A stretch of DNA of 64,000 nucleotides from Polytrichum commune (taxonomy: Eukaryota > Streptophyta > Polytrichopsida > Polytrichales > Polytrichaceae), in contig OX485805.1 of NCBI GenBank assembly GCA_950295325.1, forward strand, positions 25,903,501 to 25,967,500, in the 5' to 3' direction. Below are positions 22,425 through 52,546 of the stretch, in pieces (positions within the stretch are counted from its first letter, which is position 1; the number at the start of each line of letters is the position of its first letter). The position numbers and the translations under genes were made by a program. The notes beneath the pieces are model-generated. The model saw only the letters and a list, made by a program, of their open reading frames with translations. It was not told the origin of the DNA and did no database searches.

Positions 22425-24938
22425 CTAGGGGGGGGGATATTCACCATGCCCTCGCTTTGTGTTGGTGTTTGTTGTATTGTGTTTGTAGAGTTTGTGGGTG
22501 GGGGGGGGGAACATTATTGTTGCTTGTTGGAGAGCCTCCTTGATGGTTTTGGGTATGTGTTTGTAAATGGATTGAAATTCTTTCGGGGTTAGTATGGCTT
22601 TGGTAGTAGAGTTTTGGATTTGTATTAGTGTGGTAATGCCGTATATGTATAGTTTGTCTAGATATTTTTGGGTCTTGGCTTTGGATATATCCGTTAGGGT
22701 GTTATAATTTGGGTTGGTTTTCCAAATTCTTTCTAGTGATGTTTCTTTGATGGGGAATGCTTGGCTTGTGGAATGGACGTGAATTTCATATTCTCTTTCA
22801 AGGAGGAAGAGTGTTCGGGCTATAGGGGAATGGACACATGCTTGTTGTTTGAGTTTGGGGAGGTATCGGGCCCCACCATACTTGGCCGCTATATGTTTGG
22901 TTAGCCCTTGGTATATAATGCCTAATTGGCCCGGGTCGTTAAGTGCTTGGATTAATTGTTGTCCTATGCATCGGATGTAGTCGGGTAGTAGGGAGGTGAC
23001 GTTAATGCCAAAGCTCTCTTGTGGGAGGTGGGTGAGAATGTTGGCCGAGCTTTTAGGAATGTTGCAAATTTCTTTGGTTAATTTGCTAATGATTTTGTCT
23101 AATTTTTTAATATCCGGTTTGGAGAATGGGACGGCGTAATAAGCGTATGCTATTCGCGGTTTAATGACTGTATTTAAGATTTTGATTTTTTGTGTGAGGC
23201 TAGCCGGTGAGGTAGTTAAGAGTTGGCTTTGTTGTTTGACTTTCTTCATCGTTATTTCTTTTTGTAGGTTCCATTTGAGTGATGGTGTGAGGTTTATTCC
23301 TAAATACGTATATGGTTCGTTTTGGGTGAGAATGGGGAAATTTTGAGAGTTGTATGTGATATGTTGTGATTGGATGTATGCTTTGAAGGTAGAGGGTTTT
23401 AGTTTAGATTTATTAGGGCATCCGGTAATGGCACATTTTGATAGATTGAGGTCCATGTGGGACCATTTCGCGAATTTTTGGAGTTTTGTCACTTGTGGTT
23501 GAATATGTAATATGTGGTCCGTTATAATAGCTAGGTCATCCGCGTATGCGGTTGTGGTACATGTGGCGGAGGACGTGTTGAAATGATAACCTATGTTATC
23601 TTTTTCTAGCCATCTTAGTAGTGGTTCGAGAAAAATGATAAAAAGATATGGGCTAAGGGTGTCCCCTTGTATGGTCCCGCGGCTTATTTCTATTGGGGGT
23701 GTCGTGCCAAAATGACTCCCGGTGAAGGATGTGGTGGAGTTGGTGTAGATATTGCCTACGATTTCTACCGCGTCTAATGGGTAGCCTAGGTCCTCCATTA
23801 TGGCTAGGAGTCTTGCGTGGTCTATAGAGCCGAAGGCATTTCTAAAGTCTATATAGGTTAAGTATATATATTTTGTGGTTAGTCTTGCATCTTCTAGTGT
23901 TGCTATGATCGTTTGAATTTGTCTCGAGGTATTTCGTTGTGGTCGAAAGCCTTCTTGGCTAAAGTGTAGTAATCTATGTTTTTCTCCGTAGCTTGTTAAG
24001 AGTGATGTTAGTGTACTAGTGTATAGTTTATAGATTGTATTAGCTAGGGAGATTGGTCTATAGTTGGATATGTGGGTGGGGTCGTCTTTTTTGTGTAATA
24101 AGATGGTCTTACTATGTTTCCAATAGTGCGGGATCGTTCTTTGTTTGTAACAATGTTTGAAAAATAGATATAGGAGGTCTTGCCATTGTGTGGGTAGTGT
24201 TTTAATGATATCATTTGGGATATTGTCTAGGCCCGGGGCTTTCCCTTTTGTTAGGCTTTTGACGCAACAATCGTACACTTCTCTAGTGAATTGGTTACTT
24301 ATTTGTGTATTGGGGTTGCCTCGTTTTTCTAGAATGATTCCTTGATGTGAGTGCCACGGATATCTTCTTACTGCGCATATGCACGTATTAGGGTGGTCCG
24401 TGATGTCCTCACATAGGGGGGCTTGTCGTTGGAATGAGGTTTGTTGGGTATGGTATATCTCCCTAGCTATTTCGGCGGGTTTGGTGAGGATTTGACCTTG
24501 GGGGTTTTGTATATAATCGAGTGTGTTGGTGGTTGTTGGGTGAAATATTTTTTTGTGGATGATTTTGGGTTTAGTATTTAGTAAGATTCTATATTTGTTA
24601 ATGGCGGCTTTGCAATTAAGTGAGGTTTGCTTGGTTATGATTTTGTGGGCTTCTGTCTTCGCATTTTTCCCTATAGTGGCTAGCTGAGCAATCCATGTGT
24701 GTATTTCTGTGGGATGTGGGGGTAGTGGTGGAATATTGGGGTTTCTTAGTAGTTGAAGATTTTTTATATCTGAGTGGTTATGTAGTTGTGTGTGCGGGTA
24801 GTGACATGCGGCTCTTATGGCTTTCCGGGTGTTATGGTATATTTTCAATTGATGTTTCCATTTATTCTGTTGGGTCCTGGGGAGAAATCCTCCTTGAGGT
24901 TTTACCCTATTTGGTAGTGGTGGGGTGGGGTAGGTCAT
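22425..24938 (-). CDS. Retrotransposon reverse transcriptase
   Basis: 837 codons continuing the endonuclease frame after an in-frame TAA. Order of RT blocks: KGKAPGLDNIPNDI, HYWKHSKTILLHKKD, NYRPISLANTIYKLYTSTL, QEGFRPQRNTSRQI, YLTYIDFRNAFGSIDH, ISRGTIQGDTLSPYLFIIFL, TAYADDLAII (YADD about 465-468), then the LNLSKCAITG and YLGINLTPSLKWN thumb blocks. All are typical of APE-type non-LTR elements. The frame closes at a nine-C run (22428-22436). The RT domain itself looks intact. Confidence 0.93.
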   Translation of the reverse strand: MTYPTPPLPNRVKPQGGFLPRTQQNKWKHQLKIYHNTRKAIRAACHYPHTQLHNHSDIKNLQLLRNPNIPPLPPHPTEIHTWIAQLATIGKNAKTEAHKIITKQTSLNCKAAINKYRILLNTKPKIIHKKIFHPTTTNTLDYIQNPQGQILTKPAEIAREIYHTQQTSFQRQAPLCEDITDHPNTCICAVRRYPWHSHQGIILEKRGNPNTQISNQFTREVYDCCVKSLTKGKAPGLDNIPNDIIKTLPTQWQDLLYLFFKHCYKQRTIPHYWKHSKTILLHKKDDPTHISNYRPISLANTIYKLYTSTLTSLLTSYGEKHRLLHFSQEGFRPQRNTSRQIQTIIATLEDARLTTKYIYLTYIDFRNAFGSIDHARLLAIMEDLGYPLDAVEIVGNIYTNSTTSFTGSHFGTTPPIEISRGTIQGDTLSPYLFIIFLEPLLRWLEKDNIGYHFNTSSATCTTTAYADDLAIITDHILHIQPQVTKLQKFAKWSHMDLNLSKCAITGCPNKSKLKPSTFKAYIQSQHITYNSQNFPILTQNEPYTYLGINLTPSLKWNLQKEITMKKVKQQSQLLTTSPASLTQKIKILNTVIKPRIAYAYYAVPFSKPDIKKLDKIISKLTKEICNIPKSSANILTHLPQESFGINVTSLLPDYIRCIGQQLIQALNDPGQLGIIYQGLTKHIAAKYGGARYLPKLKQQACVHSPIARTLFLLEREYEIHVHSTSQAFPIKETSLERIWKTNPNYNTLTDISKAKTQKYLDKLYIYGITTLIQIQNSTTKAILTPKEFQSIYKHIPKTIKEALQQATIMFPPPTHKLYKHNTTNTNTKRGHGEYPPP

Positions 24939-25193: not shown

Positions 25194-28100
25194 TTAGACT
25201 GGGTAGTGATCCGAGTTTTGGTTTAGGTTGGTTAGCGTGTGGCTATGAAGATTGGTGATATTGGGGTCGTTGGTGTAGAAGCCATCTATATGGCTAGTTG
25301 ATGTGTAGTTGTGGCCTCCTTGCCTTGTGAATTTTACTGGGTTATGGACCACTTTGAGTCCGTTGTTTCGTATGAAGCATGCCCATTCTTGGTCCTCCAT
25401 ATTAGGCGGGGTGGAAGTGCTATTATTGGTTCTTTCTTGTAGTAGTATGTCTCGGTTAAAGTCTCCGGCTAGTATGGTGGTGTGGTGGGGGTGTTGTACT
25501 ATGATGTTTTGAATTTGGTTTTGGATTTCGGGTATTAGGTACTCGTCATCTATGTGTGATGGCATGTACATGTTTAGGATGATTAGCGGTGTTAGTGGTT
25601 TGTTATTGATTATTATGGCTTGTAGGTAAGGTGAGATTAGGCTTGGGGTTGGTATTTTGGTGATGTTTTCGTTTGTGTATATTGATATTGGTATCATGGC
25701 TAGGATGCCACCTCTAGCTTGCGTGGGGCCCGCATATTTATTATGTCTTTGGGATGTGGTGTTTGAGTTGTTGTATATGATTTTGTATTCTTTTAGTTGG
25801 CGATCTATGTATGATGTGGATTTTATTTTTGGGATTTTGGTTTCTTGGATGAGTATAATATGAGGGTTGTTGTGTAGTGTTTGGGTGAGGTCTTGGATAC
25901 CGGGGAGGCTAGAGTTGATACATCCAGTGTTCCAAGTGATTATTTTCAGGGTTTGGGTTGTTGGGTTATTTGGCCTGGTATGTATGTGTGGAATGTCATA
26001 GTTAGGTATGTGTGTGTTGGGTTGGTATCCTTTTATTGTGTGGGAGCATTTAGTTAGTTCTTGCACTATTTTATTTGGGAGGTGGGATATTTCATTTTGT
26101 AGGTTTTCTGCGGTTATGGGTATTCCTTTAGCGATTTTGTCATTGATAATGGAATAAGCTTGTGGAATGGTGATTATTGTTGGGGTATGCAAGTTATGTT
26201 CATATGATGTGCGTGGGTGCATATTCATTGGCATTTTTTGTATTCTTCGGAGGATGGTTAGGTATCTGGGGTCAAGTTTGTTAGTCATTTTTTTATTACA
26301 TATTTGTGATAGTGGGCTATATGTTATAATAAGGGCATATATTTGGTGGTGTGTGGGGTAGTTTGAGAGTAATGATGAGTGGTTTTTTAGGTGTGTTAGT
26401 TCTTGAGAGTCGGGGGTGTTTTTGTTTAAATGGGGTTCAAATAGTTTTTCAAGGTGGGCGTATTGAGGTTTGAGTGTTAGGGTATTTGGAATAAAGTATT
26501 GTTTTTGCCTTTGTGTATATTCTTTGGGGAGGTTCTTGAGGATGGTTGAGAGCGGCCCCGGGTTTAGTTCAATGTCTCCGTGGAGGAGTATGAGTGTAGA
26601 GTTGTTCCAAGTGTAATATGTTATGGTTTTAATTCTTGGTTTTGTGTGGTATGTGTGTGTTATGTAGTAGATGTTGCCTATATGTATCATTATATTAATG
26701 AGGGTGATTGTGTGGGTTGTGTTGTTGTGATTTGTGTGTAGGTTGTGTATTTGTTCATGTGTGGTGGATGTACATGTGGTGCCTTTTTTTTGGTTAGTTT
26801 CGTGTTTGGGGAAGGTAGTGAAAATACTATTGTGGTAATGTGTGTGATTATTATCGATGTGTTGATGTTTTGGTGATAGCGTGATGTGTGGTGGGAGTGG
26901 GAGTGTATGTGACTGTAGTGTGGGTGTTGTTGGTGTTTCCGTTAGGTAAGATTGTGGCATTTTTTTTTGTGTGTGGACTGATGATTTGTGTTGTAAGGGT
27001 GTTAGGTTTAGGTTTCGGGGGAAAGAGGCATGAAATTCAAATAATTCCTCTAGGTGTCCATATTGGGGTTTGAGTGTTAGTATTTTGGGTATAACATATT
27101 GGTGTTGTGTATGTGTGTATTCTTGAGGTCGGTTCATGGGAGTTTGTGATATTGGGCCAGGATTAGGTTCCACATCTCCGTGTTGAAGGATTATTGCGGA
27201 GTTGTTCCAAGTGTAATATTTTATGGATTTAATTTTTGGATTTTTATGATGGGTGTGCGTTATGTGATATATGTTGCTTATGAGGGTTAGTATGTCTATT
27301 GGGGCCATTGGTGAGGTTATCTTATTTTGGGTGTTATGTTGGGTATTATAGTTGTTGTAGGAGTGTTTGTGTGTATTGTAAGTGTGGGTGTTGCCTTTAT
27401 TGGGGTTGGGGTGGTATGTGATAAGTGGGTGTGGTTGTTGTGTGAAGTGGTTGTGGGATGTGCATGAATGTGGTTTATTATATATATGGTTGTTGAGGGG
27501 GTGTGTGGAAGGGATTAAGGTGTTAATGAGGGATTGTGTTGTGGGTGTATGTTGTATTAGATTGTAAGTGGGGGTTGTGTAGTGGGTCTTGTTATGTGTG
27601 AAGGTTATACTAAATGGGATTTTTTTTGGTGGGGTGGTATGGGGGTTGGATTTGTTATGGTATGTAAGATTATCTTGGTGGGTGACGGGGGGGGGGGGGT
27701 GGCTTATCCAAATTATGAGGGTGAGACTTAATGTTATTATTTTTCTCATGCGGTAGTGTGGGTGTGTATGGGGGATTGGTGATGTGTGTGGGGGTAGCTT
27801 CCTTATGGGTTTTCCGGTTTGTATTTGATGGTGCTTAGTGTGGGTGTTTTTGTTGTGCCAATACAATGGTTTTAGTGTGTTTGTATATTTTTTGCTATAG
27901 GGGGGATATGTAGAGAGATACATAAAGTAAGAGAGTACTTGGAGTAGGAACAAGAATGTGGGCTCTTTATTATAAGATAACATCAAACTATAACATATAA
28001 GGTAGAGCGGCCATTTGTGATATGCTAAGGGGACACTATCCATTAAATGTGTGGGGTCCTTGATGGTACATTTGTTGGTTGTTTTGGAATCCGGGGGGGG

Positions 28101-29171: not shown

Positions 29172-30461
29172 TTATTGTGGGTTTTTTAGATGTACCTTAA
29201 TGAAACCCGCCCAATGTTTGGTGACGGCATTGGTCCCAATATCGATTGGGTTGGAGTAAGTTGAGCCAAGTGGGATGTCCATTTGTCGTAGTCGTTCCAC
29301 ACATGCTCCTCGTGCTTCGTGTTTGCTCATGCTTTTGAAGCCGTAGTCGAACCGGATGGTGATGTGGAAGCCCTCGGAAAGTCCGGTGGTGGTGTCCACT
29401 CTTTCTTGCCTTGGAATTTGCGTGAAGTGGAGGTGGTTACCGGGTACCGCATCCGGCCTCTCATTTGGATAACATATTTGTGGTACTCTTGGAAATGCAC
29501 GTCTAATGGTTTTGAACTCTATGACTTCATTTGTGGGGGTCCCTAATCTCTCAAATTCCTCAAGGGTACGAGTTTCATGGATGATTCCCTTACCCCTTTG
29601 TGTAGCGATGGCCTCGTGTATTGAGAAGCCTAACCACATGTGTGACACAATGTCAATGCTTGGGATTGCCTCTTTGGTGCGCGTGTTTGAAAGTTTGCTT
29701 GCGTCGGAGTTGAGTGCATGACCCCCTACTTCGCTCCTCCTACGTTTGGTGCTTTGTGTGTCTTTCACGGACTCTATCCTAGGACTTTTGTGTGGGTTGT
29801 TGGGAGGTGTCGCGTCATCGAGGTTGGTGATGTCCATTCGGTCGAGCGACATGACGGCTTGGCGGGGGGCGGCCAAGTACTCATCGTTTGAGGTAGAAAT
29901 GTGGAGGGAGCTTCCCCCATGCTCGGGTGTGACATTGTCGAGTTGCATGTCGATGTCGGCATCATGGTATGGTGTGGTTTTCTCTTTAAAAATTGCTGGT
30001 TGGCTAGGTGGTATGTCGATCTCTTCTTCATCCTCACTGTAATCTTGGATAAGTGCCCTCCTTCTTCCTGCACTTCGGGTGCTGGTGTTACGGTGCCTGC
30101 TGTTGGTGCTTCCGACCTCGATTCTAGAGCCGCCTCCTTCACTGCCATTAGCTGCTCCGGCTGCCTCCTTCCCGGCCGTTGGCTGCTTCTCTGCCGAGTA
30201 GAGCCTGGCTGCTCCCCGGCCGTTGGCTGCTTCCCATGTGCCTCCCTCTCCCGCTCCCGCCTCTGTGTCGATGTGGAACCCGCTGGCGCCTCCCGCTTCC
30301 GCACCTGCGCCGGTGTTGGGTTGCCCGCCGCTGATTCTCTCCTCCCTTCTCCCTTCTGCTTGACTCCTGAGGCTGCGACTGCTTGATCCTGAGTGGCGGA
30401 GGCGCTGCATTTGGGACGCTGCTGCTGAGTCCGCGGCTACTGGCTTACTGCTGGGTGTCAT
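29172..30461 (-). CDS. Retrotransposon gag-like N-terminal frame
   Basis: 429 codons from an ATG at 30461. The first 140 residues are low complexity, rich in Ala, Gly, Ser, Arg and Glu. An acidic stretch DYSEDEEEIDIPPSQP follows, then a basic STKRRRSE patch that could be a nuclear signal. A folded-looking C-terminal part includes SHMWLGFSIHEAI and GFHITIRFDYGFKS, and ends WAGFIKVHLKNPQ. After a single TAA the same frame continues DGIALLRGHRAFVMAMEDGE, clearly one domain, so the TAA is either a lesion or a readthrough site. I see no zinc knuckle in this part. The function inferred is RNA binding within the retrotransposition complex. Confidence 0.7.
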   Translation of the reverse strand: MTPSSKPVAADSAAASQMQRLRHSGSSSRSLRSQAEGRREERISGGQPNTGAGAEAGGASGFHIDTEAGAGEGGTWEAANGRGAARLYSAEKQPTAGKEAAGAANGSEGGGSRIEVGSTNSRHRNTSTRSAGRRRALIQDYSEDEEEIDIPPSQPAIFKEKTTPYHDADIDMQLDNVTPEHGGSSLHISTSNDEYLAAPRQAVMSLDRMDITNLDDATPPNNPHKSPRIESVKDTQSTKRRRSEVGGHALNSDASKLSNTRTKEAIPSIDIVSHMWLGFSIHEAIATQRGKGIIHETRTLEEFERLGTPTNEVIEFKTIRRAFPRVPQICYPNERPDAVPGNHLHFTQIPRQERVDTTTGLSEGFHITIRFDYGFKSMSKHEARGACVERLRQMDIPLGSTYSNPIDIGTNAVTKHWAGFIKVHLKNPQ

Positions 30462-30789
30462 TGTGTCTGGGAGGGTGGGAAGAGAGGTGTGAGAGGTGGT
30501 GTGAGGTGTGAGAGGTGTGAGAGGTGTGAGAGATGTGTGTGAGGTGGGAGGGAGAGGTGTGTGGGAGGTGGGAGGGAGAGAGATGTGCGATGTGAGAGGG
30601 AGAGGAGTGTGAGAATGTGTGTGTTGGGAAGGTATTTGAGTGTGTGTGTGGAGCGAGAGAGATGGGCGGCTGTCTGTTGTTTTTGGGTGTGTGAGTAGAT
30701 TTGGGAGGTTGGTTTTGTGGGTTTCTACATACTTAGGGTGATGGGTTGGAATGTCAGATCTAATATGGGGGAGTGATGTGGATTTTGGT
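30462..30789 (-). repeat. Retrotransposon 5' leader with GTGTGAGAGG-type short tandem repeats
   Basis: On the plus strand the region is made of GTGTGAGAGGTGTGAGAGGT-like units with GTGTG and GAGAG runs (about 30480-30660). No coding sequence. It may act as the internal promoter and leader; inferred from position only. Confidence 0.5.
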
Positions 30790-31942: not shown

Positions 31943-32281
31943 TGCTTTTACTTTTAAATATATTAATGCACTCCTCTTTTATAGTGTGAGAATCCTATAT
32001 ACTAAGTCTTTAGGGTTTAAGGGTACACATAACAATGAGAAGATGTGCATTACACTATAAAAAGAGGATATTCCTGACAATTTTTCGGCTTGAAGAGCCA
32101 GTATGCAAGTAACGGTGGGGGAGTGCCACCCTAAAAAAATTTAGTGCATGCTTGGAGCCCTTCAAAGCGCATTTCGAGAGCCTGCCTTTCTGCCCAAGGG
32201 TGGAGATGCTCTAAAGACTTAGTATATAGGATTCTCACACTATAAAAGAGGAGCACATTAATATATTTAAAAGTAAAAGCA
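31943..32281. mobile_element. Foldback MITE with about 70-bp inverted repeats
   Basis: Left arm about 31943-32012 starts TGCTTTTACTTTTAAATATA. Right arm about 32212-32281 is its near-exact complement. Both contain CTTTTATAGTGTGAGAATCC on the left or its complement on the right. The interior is about 200 bases without coding sequence. I found no certain target duplication. Confidence 0.75.
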
Positions 32282-32594: not shown

Positions 32595-33310
32595 ATTTCA
32601 TAACATAAGTTAGATTGGTCAAGCTGGCAAACACAGGATCTACAGTAGCTATTCTTAAGATGGAATTAGGGTTTTGTCAAGTGAGGAATTACTTAGAGTT
32701 TGTAAACTTTTTGATGTGAACTGAATCTTCAAGTATGAGATTTGGGGTCCCAAACAACATGATCTCTATGTTGCCAGTACTAACACCCAATGCAGTAATT
32801 GCATCTTGATGCTCTCAGTCATATAACGTGGAATGGTCGAGCTGGCAGCCCAGGATCCGCCGTAGCTCTGACTCAGATGGAAGTAGGATTTCCTCTTTGT
32901 TGCTGAATAGATTTTAGGTGAGAAAATATTAGAGTTTGTAGAGTTTTGATGTGAACTGAATCTTCAAGTGTGACTGGGGTTCCAAATTACGTGATCTACA
33001 TCTTTTCATACACCAATTGCATTTTGGCACTCAGATTGCATTCAGTACACCTAATCCAGCAATTGCAATTTGACGCTCTCAATTTCATAACACAGAATGG
33101 TCGAGCTGGCAGACACAGGATCTACAAGTAGCTCCGACTAAGATAGAATTAGGGTTTCATTTTTGTTGCTGGGTAGATTTCCAAGTGAGGAATTAAATAG
33201 AGTTTGTAGACTTTTGATGTGAACTGAAACTTCATTTGTCACTGGGGGTTTCAACAACATAATGTCCATCTTTCCATGCAGTAATTGTATTTTGGCGCTC
33301 TGAATTTGGT
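32595..33310 (+). repeat. Triple tandem repeat just upstream of UreD, about 240-bp unit
   Basis: Each unit has TTCATAACAT-GAATGGTCGAGCTGGCAG-like sequence, ACAGGATCTAC-GTAGCT, GGAATTAGGGTTT, GAGTTTGTAGACTTTTGATG, TGAACTGAATCTTCAAGTGT and AGTAATTGCAT-TTG. The last unit ends about 140 bases before the UreD ATG, so the promoter or leader is probably embedded in the array. Confidence 0.75.
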
Positions 33311-33451: not shown

Positions 33452-35156
33452 ATGGATGATCCCGGTGTCCAATTAGGGTTTAAGAAATTGTTAGGCGCTA
33501 GTTTTAAGGAGAAAGCGCTCACAGGAATCCTCAAGGTGGAGAGGATCGCAGGGAGGTCTGCCGCAACTCGGACATTTGCAAAGTACCCCCTCAAGTTTCT
33601 GTTACCGAGAAAGATCGTTTCTCGGGGTGTGGATGCGGTGTGGATATTTGCCATTTCATATGGCGGGGGAATCGTTTCCAACGATTCTATCAGTCAGAAC
33701 GTGGATATTGGAGCCTCCTGCTCCGCTGTCATCACCACGCAAGCGTCCACCAAGATCTACAAGTCTGTGAATGGACAATTCTGTGAGCAGATCCTCCAGG
33801 CTCAAGTTGGCCCGGAAGGCTTCCTCGCTGTTTTGCCCGACCCCATCACCTGCTTTGCAAATTCTAAGTACATTCAGGTAAGATCTCAAGTGCACCGTCC
33901 TGAATCTTGATAGAATGAGAGTTTTGTTACTTTGTTTGCTGGGTCCTTTGAACGCGATTCAATAGCACGAAGTGCCCAAAGAATTAGCACACGTAAAGAA
34001 AAATTGATTCATCAGAACCAGTACAGCTTTTCCATGCCAAATGTTTTTCGCAAAATGAAAGAAAAAATATGGGATCCACGTCACGACAAAATGAAGTACT
34101 CCTCACCCACATGGCTCAAGTGCAAATGTCTCATTGCACTATAGCAAAGGAGGAGTCCTCTTGAAGAAGGTTGATGCTCTCTTATATGTGTGCACAGAAC
34201 CAATTGCCTTCCTTTTTGCAAGTGCAAACTTATGATGATTGCACTAGTGGTTAAGACGAAACTTAAGACGAAATCCTCTTGAAGGTGGTTGAGGCTCTCT
34301 TAAAAGTGTGCACACAACCGCCTTCCTTTCCTCAAGCATCTATGTGTTGCGGTGAGTAACCTGGGAGTCATTTCCCTTACTCGATTTGGGCAACTATCCA
34401 CATGTCAGTTGAAGGCCACATACAAGTCGTGCATCCTCCCTGTTTTTCACATGGTTAAATGCACCAACGACCAGTAGGAGATTGCCTTTCTTTCTGCTTC
34501 TAGTGCCTCCATCTAACAGATCCCATCTCACATTGGTTAGAGGATTCCTTATTCTATCATAATACCTGTTGTAATGACAGGTGCAAGAGTTTTATCTCTC
34601 AGCAGGCGCCAATTTAGTGCTCATAGATTGGATGACAAGTGGCCGCATTGACAATGGGGAGAGTTGGGAATTTGAGATGTACAGAAGCACAAACCACATT
34701 TATGTTAACGAACAAGAAGCCGATGGCGACTTCGGCAAGTCGAAACCTGTCTTCTTAGACTCTGTCTGTTTAGAGCAAGGTGTTGGAACATCGGTCGCAG
34801 ACCGAATGCAAGGTTTCCATGTGGTGGCGACAATGGTGATTTATGGACCAAAATTGGCAGGGTTGCGAGGCAGTGTTCAGAAGAAAGTGCAAGAGCTCAC
34901 ACAGGGGGCTTTCACACGACGAAAATCGGTCGAATTGACATCTCAGTTGAGAGATTATTCAACCTGCTCATCAAAGCGTGCAACAACTAACATCGAGCCT
35001 TTGATATTTATATCCTGTAGTACTATAGGGCTACAAGATGAAGGTTTAGTGGTGCGTGTAGTCGCGAGTAACACCGAACTCATGTATAACTTTTTCAAAG
35101 AGCAATTGGCTGTCATAGTCCATATTACTGGAGCTTGCCCTTATGCTGGCAGATGA
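33452..35156 (+). CDS. URED: Urease accessory protein UreD, two exons
   Basis: Exons 33452-33877 and 34581-35156 join in phase 0 (CAG/GTAAGA donor, ATGACAG acceptor) to give 333 residues, near the length of plant UreD plus a short N-terminal extension. UreD acts with UreF and UreG in delivering Ni and CO2 to cytosolic urease. Conserved blocks: TRTFAKYPLKFLLP, YGGGIVSNDSIS, ITTQASTKIYKS, FLAVLPDPITCF, SAGANLVLIDWMTSGR, NGESWEFEMY, VADRMQGFHVVATMVIYGPKL, and C-terminal VVRVVASNTELMYNFFKEQL. Arabidopsis UreD has the same block order. The ATG at 33452 is the first in frame; earlier codons lack one. The frame is clean, so it looks functional. Upstream is the 240-bp triple repeat; the intron holds a dispersed repeat. 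Confidence 0.93.
34060..34560 (+). repeat. Dispersed repeat copy B, in the UreD intron
   Basis: Homologous to 1-410 in the same orientation. This copy has an internal duplication: AGTCCTCTTGAAGAAGGTTG...CTCTCTTATATGTGTGCACA is followed by a second version, AATCCTCTTGAAGGTGGTTG...CTCTCTTAAAAGTGTGCACA. It ends within 25 bases of the exon 2 acceptor. Confidence 0.65.
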
Positions 35157-48935: not shown

Positions 48936-48984
48936 AATTAGGCACGTCTGTCTTGTGGGTCACTCTTGTACCTAGTACATGGAC

Positions 48985-49848
48985 TAATTCAAGTTCCTTG
49001 TAGAACGCCCAATTCTATCTGCCCGATGAACCTGTTGCAAACATGAAGCTGGCTTCAAAGGATCCCGTTGTCGTTGTGTCAGCCTCATCTCGCAATCCTT
49101 GTCTACGGGAAGAATTGGACCAGTGATCATCCAATGTAGATTCACTGCTTATCGAACCTCACAGGCTTGTCGAAACCATACATCAAGCTCGGTTTGCATG
49201 CTGGCAAAAACGGCATCAATGCTTCGGTCACCAGGAACTGGCGAGCAACACGCATCTTGGGTCTAATTTTCCTTGTGTACGCCCAGTGCCATCTGCCGAC
49301 GAACCTGTTGCAGATATGAATCTGGCTTCAAAGAATCCCGTTGTGGTTGTTTCAACCTGACCTCGTAATCCTTGTTCTGTGGGAAGAATTGGACCAGTGA
49401 TCATCCAATGTAGATTCACTGCTTATCGAACCTCACAGGCTTGTCGAAACCATACATCAAGCTCGGTTTGCATGCTGGCAAAGACGGCATCAATGCTTCG
49501 GTCACCAGGAACTGGCGAGCAACACGCATCTTGGGTCTAATTTAAGTTGCTTTTCCTTGTGTCGCCCAGTGCCATCTGCCGACGAACCTGTTGCAAATAT
49601 GAAGCTGGCTTCAAAGAATCCCGTTGTGGTTGTTTCAACCTGACCTCGTAATCCTTGTTCTGTCGGAAGACTTAGAGCGGTGATCATCCAATGTAGATTC
49701 CCTGCTTATCGAAACTCACAGGCTTGTCGAAACCATACGTCAAGCTTGGTTTGCTTGCTGGCAAAGACGGCGTCAATGCTTCATCCACCAAGACCTGATG
49801 AGAAACACACGTCTTGGGTCTAATTTGAGTTCCTTGTGTACGCCCAAT
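48985..49848 (-). repeat. Three extra tandem copies of the LecRK 3' end, about 280-bp unit
   Basis: Units at about 48990-49270, 49271-49550 and 49550-49830 are near-identical to the terminal coding part of the kinase gene (about 49835-50100). Each holds GAACCTGTTGCAAATATGAA, GGCTTCAAAGAATCCCGTTG, GTGATCATCCAATGTAGATT, CACAGGCTTGTCGAAACCAT and CGAGCAACACGCATCTTGGG. Short minus-strand frames within (49228-49419, 49502-49687) are reading-frame debris. Confidence 0.85.
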
Positions 49849-52086
49849 TCAATCTGCCCATGAACCTGTTGCAAATATGAAGCTAGCTTCAGAGGATCCC
49901 GTTGTGGTTGTGCCGGCCCGACCTCGCCATCCTTGTCTGTGGGAAGAATTCGAGCGGTGATCATCCAATACAGATTCACTGCTATCGAATCTCACAGGCT
50001 TGTCGAAACCAAACATCAAACTCGGTTTGCATGCTGGCAAAGACGGCATCAATACCTCGCCCACCAGGACCTGGTGAGCGACACGCATCTTGGGTCTTGC
50101 ATCGGGATCCGGGTGGCAGCACAACAACCCAAGCTGCAACAAACACGTCAATTGCTCCACGTCAAACATTGATTCTAACCTAGGGTCTGCAACACGGAGG
50201 AGATGACCATCCTCGTGGGCACACCACACATAGTCGACCAGCGTCGTAAACTTTTCCTCCTCTTCCTGCTCTTCAGACAGGGTGAACTCGATCAGCGCAG
50301 GTCTTCCGCATGCCACTACCAGTGCGAGAACTCCAAAGCTGAAGACATCGGATTTTTCCGTTGCTCTCCCTGTGTGCGCCATCTCGGGTGCAATGTAGCC
50401 GAAAGTGCCTGCCAGGCGGGTTTGTTTGGAGGAAACGCTGTGGTTCATGAACCGCGCCAACCCAAAATCACCAAGATGCGCATTGAATTCCTCGTCCAGC
50501 AAGACGTTACTATCTTTTAGGTCTCTGTGCAGGACACGCTTCTTCCATCCATCGTGTAGGTAAGTGACCGCGGCGGCCACTCCCATCATGATGTGGTGGC
50601 GCTTCTCCCACGTGAGCACTGGCTTTGACTCATGAGACGGAAAAATCCATTTGTCAAGGCTGTTGTTGGGCATGTACTTGTACACAAGCAATAGGTGTTC
50701 ATTTTCCCAACACCAGCCGTAGAGCTGAACTAGGTTTCGGTGACGAATCTGGCTGATGACGGAAACCTCCGCAAGGAAATTGCCTGCAGCACGAGCTTCA
50801 GCGGATGATTGCAGCATGCGTTTCACAGCTACATCGATATTATTCATGGATCTCGTGTCTCTCACAGCCCCCTTGAATACTTGACCAAACCCCCCCTTGC
50901 CCAACACATGGTCCTCGCTGAAGCCATTGGTGGCGCTGCTAAGCTCCTCGTATGTGAACTGCCGTAACCACATGTGCTCCTGCTCAAACTGCATCTTGAT
51001 ATTCAAAGCAACCGTGTCCGCTCCTTCATCAAGTTGCCCCTGCGCTTGTTTCGCACGCACAATAGCACGACGACGCATGAGTAGAAGACACGCTGCAAGG
51101 CCAATAAGAAGAATCAAGGCCACCCCTGTGGCGAGTCCGGCGACCAGGCCAACCTGTGAATTACTTTTTTTCGCGAGCTGCATTATCAAATTACTGGAGC
51201 TTTGGAAGCTCCACGACTTGATGTGGTGAACCTCCGGAGCACTGGCAACTGAGCCACTGAATCCGACGTACATGTAGTCGTCAACCACGCCGCTTAGGTC
51301 AAGGTTCTTCACGGTTATGATCGGGGTTGCAGGCCTTGCCACACCTTGAAGGGTTGATCCTTTTGTGAAACGAACTTGTAGGGTTTGGTTTCCCCCATCG
51401 TAGTCAATCCAGGAAGTGAAGTCGTCGCCTGCAATGAGGTACACGCAAGAGTTTATTGAACTACATAGATCGAAGAAAGCTGTTGAGTTCATGCTGTTGA
51501 CATTGACACCGATGTGATTGGCACTAGGATCATTGAACTCGGGGTTTTCCCAAGTATCAAATTCCACTGCAAACACGTGGTTGTTTGCGTCTCCGTTGTG
51601 TGTCTTATTCAAAAGGCACATACAAGCACCGGCGCCTGCGAGTGTAGAATTGTGCTGGTTATAAGTAGCAAGCATGAAGGCGAACCCGGCGGAACTACTC
51701 CCCATAATTGAAAAAGTGAAGGCAGTACTGAACGAGGCTACTCTTTTTGGCGCAGTTGTATTAGAAGACGTCCGCATTTGGACAAGCTGTGAATACAGCA
51801 CCTGTCCACAAGTAAAGTTACGAAAGGGGCTGGCGCTGGAAGCGTCCGCATTGAGCAAGACGGAGGAACCGTTAACTCGTGAATCGTTCACAAATGTGAG
51901 CAATGAATTGTCACTGGAGCTGGAATTGAAGGTATTAAAGGCAAAAGTGGTGGTGTTCAGGCTAAGACCTTGACATGTGGACAGAGTTGTAATTGTCAGG
52001 TAGGCTAGAAGAAGCACTCGGCAGACTAAGAGGCGCCAACTTGAGGCTGCAAGTGAGCTGCCCAAAATCGTTGGAAGCAGCAGCAT
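49849..52086 (-). CDS. L-type lectin receptor-like kinase (intronless)
   Basis: 745 residues from ATG at 52086. A signal peptide comes first (about 1-40), then a legume-lectin domain to about 300: [20 protein letters not shown] carries the metal-site pattern, followed by [14 protein letters not shown] and [13 protein letters not shown]. One membrane span lies at about 313-338. The kinase domain has GKGGFGQVF (G396), VAVKR (K422), [12 protein letters not shown] (D522), GDFGLARF (D540) and [10 protein letters not shown], so it is an RD kinase with all core residues. It would sit in the plasma membrane and signal from an external ligand, as LecRKs in immunity or development do; ligand unknown. 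The tail after about residue 680 is Ser/Arg/Gly-rich, and its DNA is repeated three more times downstream. The ATG is the first in a long clean frame with a hydrophobic leader. Confidence 0.93.
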
Positions 52087-52546
52087 TTTGTCACCTCACG
52101 TAATAAACTCGGGCTAGCCCTACCCCATCCTCCCTGAACAATTGCAGGTATTGCTGTTCAACCCCCATCTATGGATCTGAAGGAGGTCTCACTTCTCTTG
52201 AACATCTTCGGTAAACGAAATCCAAGTTTCGTTGACAAGATGCACCCTGAGAAACAAATCACTGGTGTACTTACATCACAAAATCTTAGAATTATGTCAC
52301 TCCCGGTGCGCACACTCGCTTCAAAACTGCGCCGCAGTAGGCATCGCAGCGAGGGTGTCGGGTGTGAGCCTGCAGCGCAGGGGGGAAAGACGTCCAAAGT
52401 CACGATTCCATAGTCTTCGAGATTACTGCCCATGGTCGATCACTTCCAGAGATTTTCACAACTTGTCAGACCATGTCGACAAGAAATATTATCGTGTAAA
52501 GAAGCAACCTTGAAATTACTAACAACTTGTACTAACTGTCTTCCGA
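52087..52546 (-). promoter_or_regulatory. LecRK upstream region
   Basis: Probable promoter and leader by position only. No distinctive element seen. Confidence 0.35.

Follow-up and report, generated by a model that had tools for sequence, protein, structure and literature searches.

The window, a 64-kb stretch of DNA analysed as a whole, carries on its minus strand a disabled non-LTR retrotransposon. Eight frames lying elsewhere in the window were compared with Pfam at E 0.001, and four of them match: one is a legume-lectin receptor kinase (PF00139, 1.6e-52) that also has kinase domains, two are parts of the magnesium chelatase ChlI, and the last is an exon of UreD (PF01774, 1.3e-22). These genes suggest a land-plant host, lectin receptor kinases being streptophyte genes. 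Three repeats lie outside the element: a MITE-like inverted repeat at 31943–32281, with 71-nt arms that are 97% complementary and 197 nt between them; a 283-bp tandem repeat in four copies at 48984–50097, which overlaps the lectin receptor kinase frame (49849–52095, minus strand) at its 3′ end; and a tandem 268-bp repeat at 32783–33300 and 34578–35156, near the UreD exon and a few kilobases from the 5′ end of the element.

Read in its own direction, the element consists of an N-terminal part, two 2A-like cores (2A1 and 2A2), an APE-type endonuclease, a reverse transcriptase (RT), a PCIF1-like stretch, an RNase H domain and a tail with CCHC, RHN and PD...E...K motifs. This set of domains, the APE endonuclease and RT among them, bears out the identification as a non-LTR retrotransposon made in a preliminary description of this DNA. 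The features of the element are as follows.

30798–30790, minus strand: candidate target-site duplication, 5′ side, TCTTACTCA, adjoining the 5′ start that is inferred at 30789
30789–19512, minus strand: non-LTR retrotransposon, disabled copy of ~11.3 kb, recognised by its domain order, its boundaries inferred from the T run and the 9-nt flank match
30461–29175, minus strand: N-terminal frame, from an ATG at 30461 to the stop in the same frame at 29174; it is gag-like in position alone
29171–25197, minus strand: uninterrupted frame of 1,325 codons, holding the N-terminal remainder, 2A1, a middle peptide, 2A2 and the endonuclease
25952–25197, minus strand: APE-type endonuclease (Pfam PF14529, 1.8e-8, and PF03372, 2.3e-7, both above the curated cut-off)
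24095–23289, minus strand: reverse transcriptase core (Pfam PF00078, 2.2e-33), with YADD at 23546–23535
21930–21673, minus strand: PCIF1-like stretch between RT and RNase H (PF12237, 2.7e-6; 27.5 bits, below the Pfam cut-off of 31.1)
21067–20717, minus strand: RNase H domain (Pfam PF00075, 7.6e-13; PDB RNase H1, 4e-4)
20365–19706, minus strand: candidate restriction-like endonuclease with CCHC finger, RHN and RPD...E...K (weak PDB match, E 1.1, to two chains, both R2-type)
19640–19512, minus strand: structured 3′ end with T-run tail (−54.7 kcal/mol, z −7.3)
19511–19503, minus strand: candidate target-site duplication, 3′ side, TCTTACTCA, at the end of the T run

The endonuclease is visible only when its part is scanned alone, because a scan of the whole 1,325-codon frame against Pfam at E 0.1 returned no family; against the PDB, the endonuclease piece matches exonuclease III with E 0.04 at best. 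The PCIF1-like stretch has no PDB match at E 10. The PCIF1 family is that of a cap m6Am methyltransferase, and downstream of the stretch the position of the catalytic NPPF seems, by eye, to be changed. The sense strand of the element, as measured in seven stretches of 28400–22443 (minus strand), is poor in G (5–12%) and rich in A and C. The 3′ end folds into nested stem-loops and finishes in a run of T, not A.

The 9-nt flank match is the sole exact match of at least 8 nt between the stretches 31000–30600 and 19620–19380; alone it is weak, with approximately 0.4 such matches expected in the compared stretches by a rough estimate, and what favours it as a target-site duplication is its position, just where the T run ends. 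Between these ends, the frame is broken by stops at 29174, 25196, 24995 and 22427 and by slips near 22440 and 21379. This copy is disabled and unable to make a whole polyprotein itself. Three stops in 7.8 kb correspond to ~1% random substitution since insertion (Poisson range 0.2–2.8%), an estimate that counts the stops at 29174, 25196 and 24995, leaves out 22427, which lies beyond the presumed slip near 22440, and would be lower if an ORF really ends at 29174. By blast, there is no second copy of the element within the 64-kb window, the only other matches being the 2A duplication described below and a 29-nt internal repeat, and within-window tblastn matches other than the element itself have E 0.43 or worse. 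Relatives of the RT, the RNase H–tail region, the endonuclease and the alignment of the two 2A units were absent from viral contigs, as were relatives of the RT and the two-unit alignment from prokaryotic genome contigs; these searches say little about plants, since the collections hold viruses and prokaryotes.

NPGP occurs twice in a six-frame translation of the window, both times on the minus strand and in a single shared frame. The preliminary description had reported two exact D(V/I)ExNPGP motifs here, in phase with the downstream endonuclease and each preceded by hydrophobic residues and His-Gly, and it was right on each point: the residues before D are IILQHG in 2A1 and LILLHG in 2A2, with G directly before D, and both cores share one frame with the APE-type endonuclease, inside which that frame ends. 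It had also placed the motifs between a leader or gag-like part and the endonuclease–RT part. The position holds; the gag identity found no backing in Pfam, the N-terminal part before 2A1 having no match in two pieces scanned at E 10. The description had left unmentioned the duplication set out below, the R2-like region at the C terminus and the disabled state of the copy.

27341–27045, minus strand: 2A unit 1, 99 codons, defined by alignment with unit 2
27182–27153, minus strand: 2A1 core HGDVEPNPGP, NPGP codons at 27164–27153 (motif scan of six frames)
27155–26556, minus strand: middle peptide of 200 codons, the expected product if both 2A sites skip
26741–26445, minus strand: 2A unit 2, 99 codons, 69% nucleotide and 57% amino-acid identity to unit 1
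26582–26553, minus strand: 2A2 core HGDIELNPGP, NPGP codons at 26564–26553 (motif scan of six frames)

Both cores satisfy the StopGo core (D/G/C/N)(V/I)ExNPGP (PMC12846837) in its canonical form, D(V/I)ExNPGP. The predicted skip site lies between G and P in each, at the P codon 27155–27153 in 2A1 and 26555–26553 in 2A2, and the two are 200 codons apart in the same stop-to-stop frame. A frameshift route to the endonuclease is unnecessary, as 2A1, 2A2 and the endonuclease occupy one open frame. Internal initiation is possible for the endonuclease part, because Met codons are present 3′ of 2A2 within the 1,325-codon frame.

Could the motifs be a chance similarity within a compositionally odd frame? 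The G-poor sense strand and the richness of the frame in T, N, H, P and I residues would lend themselves to this. Among 300 Markov-1 random windows, however, bare NPGP appeared at 0.78 per window and the full octapeptide in none, so the full octapeptide is not attributable to chance. The decapeptides, moreover, count 8 and 9 G among their 30 bases, the G content of the respective units being 9% and 7% (the chance of such counts at 8% G being 2e-3 and 4e-4). Together with the selection on the 2A units, these results make a chance origin highly improbable. The two cores are not independent occurrences, because both belong to one tandem duplication.

This duplication, offset by 600 bp and diverged, has the 2A cores at its centre. 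Units 1 and 2 differ at 18, 21 and 52 of 99 first, second and third codon positions, respectively (chi-square p 8e-6), and pN/pS between them is 0.32 (bootstrap 95% 0.22–0.44). Owing to this third-position excess and the low pN/pS, the 2A units, judged from two units of one element, show purifying selection, which the preliminary description had put forward as a check of its proposal. Only 1 of 20,000 neutral simulations reached the observed amino-acid identity; in the same whole-block runs the motif was kept in 64 and the block stayed free of stops in 1,576 of 20,000, motif survival and absence of stops being weaker measures of selection than amino-acid identity. The Nei–Gojobori method gives dS 1.6 and dN 0.25, and since this dS is near saturation the resulting dN/dS of ~0.15 is rough and pN/pS is the safer figure. 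Within the octapeptides, 9 of 24 bases differ between 2A1 and 2A2, all of the changes being silent or at V/I or x, and when nine substitutions were placed at random, the motif was lost in all 200,000 trials. There is no third copy of the 2A unit elsewhere in the element; the best stretch was equalled by 12 of 200 shuffles.

Conservation of the 2A unit reaches beyond the core, over ~100 codons and on both sides of NPGP, and dN/dS is still low, at 0.19, when the decapeptide is left out, and the unit could therefore be a domain that is maintained for a different reason. It would then be a module in the linker that precedes the endonuclease, repeated once and serving structure or nucleic-acid binding, in which NPGP is kept for the fold and no skipping takes place. 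The StopGo context is described as spanning ~30 residues or more (PMC12846837; PMC2885027), so that conservation upstream of the core is expected under StopGo as well, whereas conservation downstream of NPGP is something that StopGo does not explain. Inside the octapeptide the pattern points the other way, with the residues that StopGo requires invariant and the permitted positions varying, and on balance we consider a module without skipping unlikely.

The residues around the cores bear on how well the sites would work. In F2A, D12 and N16 are reported to be essential and L7 to matter (PMC12846837); both copies here have D at position 12, N at 16, G at 11 and I at 7. Position 15 is P in 2A1 and L in 2A2, and both residues are among those described as favoured there in viral StopGo (PMC12846837). 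Leucine-rich contexts that end in G and have D at position 12 are among the described classes, of which motif 6 was active when tested (PMC12846837). The leucine-rich motifs end in (A/S/C)G (PMC12846837), whereas position 10 is His in both copies and position 9 is Gln in 2A1, and skipping efficiency could be low for these reasons. A sea-urchin 2A-like sequence is reported to separate proteins in Nicotiana (PMC4981915). Ribosomes probably skip at both 2A sites.

The same His and Gln, along with the disabled state of the copy, would also fit a history in which 2A was active in ancestors and one or both sites are now relic or inefficient, with the other site still working or the fused form as the main product. 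Both copies match the core despite large synonymous divergence, which suggests that neither was under relaxed constraint before insertion; we give such a history little credence. The divergence of the 2A units far exceeds that gathered by the insertion itself. The insertion seems young relative to the duplication, and both 2A sites have probably persisted over many copying rounds.

We favour, as likely, a reading in which the element is Dualen/RandI-like, this copy of it is disabled, and its active relatives split a polyprotein by means of two tandem, diverged 2A (StopGo) peptides. An intact relative would be expressed from one mRNA and one frame as one long polyprotein. The ribosome would make an N-terminal gag-like part of ~1,100 codons, by the coordinates, ending in NPG at 2A1, and at each NPG|P the upstream chain would be released while the ribosome continues. 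Between the skips at 2A1 and 2A2, a middle peptide of ~200 residues would emerge, and after 2A2 an enzyme starting with proline and comprising endonuclease, RT, RNase H and perhaps a second nuclease. The duplication would raise or tune separation: two imperfect sites in series would secure it or, alternatively, the N-terminal protein would be made in excess of the enzyme through partial fall-off. Some 2As are reported to yield the upstream product alone (PMC11512398).

The placement of the element among non-LTR groups draws on the RT and on both ends of the enzyme. At E 0.01, the RT matches eight PDB sequences, led by three R2 chains at 107–115 bits, while two other R2 chains, of the 8gh6/8ibw kind, score 74–78 bits, similar to three L1-type chains at 75–77 bits, one of which is titled only RNA-directed DNA polymerase. 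Among the PDB chains compared, the best match is thus an R2 chain, at 115 bits. The C-terminal 220 residues, compared with 177,635 PDB sequences at E up to 10, gave two matches, 8gh6 and 8ibw, which we take to be R2Bm; these weak matches (E 1.1) cover the place of the CCHC and RHN motifs. A longer, 558-residue C-terminal piece gave 11 PDB hits, all RNase H, with R2-type chains absent. The region has no Pfam match and reads, in order, CX2CX9HX4C, RHN, RPD, E and K. The catalytic residues of R2Bm are given as D996, D1009 and K1026 (PMC10499050), with spacings of 13 and 17, as opposed to 27 and 16 or 19 for D92, E119 and K135 or K138 as picked by eye here. A second, C-terminal endonuclease of restriction-like type is likely present.

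Two features of Dualen/RandI are found in this element, an APE endonuclease upstream of the RT and an RNase H domain. Dualen is also said, by Kojima and Fujiwara in 2005, to carry a cysteine protease domain. We found no Pfam match to a protease domain in five frames at E 0.1 or in six sub-pieces at E 10, and for this reason we claim only a Dualen-like element. If the second endonuclease is real, the combination of APE and restriction-like endonucleases would place the element near Dualen/RandI, and on that footing it looks Dualen/RandI-like, although the placement is weak. Taken together, the tandem 2A arrangement is real and under selection; the retrotransposon that carries it is probably Dualen-like, and its host is probably a land plant. 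A more far-reaching proposal, which we put forward tentatively and would sooner doubt than assert, is that of a land-plant lineage of Dualen-like, dual-endonuclease elements that release a gag-like protein and an enzyme from a giant polyprotein at two tandem StopGo sites. If true, these would be the first natural users of StopGo in plants and a case of 2A acquisition outside the APE-only LINE clades, in a lineage that possibly carries a domain derived from a cap methyltransferase.

Most known 2A sequences belong to viruses or to certain jumping genes of animals and trypanosomes. A survey from 2026, which covers nearly 10,000 StopGo sequences of viruses, reports no evidence that plant viruses use StopGo naturally, attributes six ‘plant virus’ cases to host misclassification and describes StopGo as functional in plants when engineered (PMC12846837). 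Among the literature matches listed, as judged by titles and the starts of abstracts and with Odon 2013 and Rao 2025 outside that scope, none describes a plant 2A retrotransposon, and none a LINE with PCIF1. That this is the first plant 2A retrotransposon is unproven. Selected 2A sites in a plant element would mean that StopGo is used naturally in the plant kingdom, and would offer plant engineering 2As that have evolved alongside plant ribosomes; should the Dualen-like placement hold, they would also link 2A to a retrotransposon group near the split of R2-type and L1-type endonucleases.

Several known systems share parts of this architecture. With R2, the element has in common the best PDB match of its RT and the weak resemblance of the CCHC/RHN place to R2-type chains; R2-type elements, however, are described as using a C-terminal restriction-like endonuclease, in contrast to APE types (PMC10499050), and here the APE domains PF03372 and PF14529 are present. 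Plant LINEs are given in reviews as L1 and RTE (PMC9033089); nearly all those of flowering plants are described as L1, and several species as having RTE (PMC3747384). An APE endonuclease and RT, and often RNase H, are shared with these (PMC9033089), whereas the CCHC–RHN–PD C terminus, the 2As, the joining of the N-terminal part and endonuclease–RT in one frame, and a tail that is a T run rather than an A run or GTT repeat set this element apart. Among viruses, picornaviruses of the Paavivirinae are reported to carry several 2A-NPGP in series, with peptides of ~50–150 amino acids between them (PMC11512398). The serial arrangement is alike, but here 200 amino acids separate recognisably duplicate units, and the host is a retrotransposon, not a virus.

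Dualen/RandI elements, with both endonuclease types, are described from Chlamydomonas and its relatives (PMC4640811, PMC3636483, PMC8226300). Shared with them are the APE endonuclease, RNase H and, if real, the C-terminal PD-(D/E)XK-like endonuclease (PMC3636483, PMC4640811). The 3′ repeats of green-algal RandI are described as T-rich, (ATT)n and (CTATTT)n (PMC3747384); the 3′ end inferred here carries a simple run of T. The passages compared on Dualen/RandI mention neither 2A motifs nor a PCIF1-like stretch; conversely, this element has no protease match and its host appears to be a land plant.

Non-LTR retrotransposons that carry a 2A have it next to the APE endonuclease or upstream of it. 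D(V/I)ExNPGP is reported from L1Tc of T. cruzi and from LINEs of sea urchin and other animals (PMC4981915), and its occurrence in a non-LTR retrotransposon is the likeness between these and the present element. As opposed to those elements, the one described here has a plant-type host, two tandem diverged 2As, and an extra C-terminal R2-like region and RNase H in one long frame.
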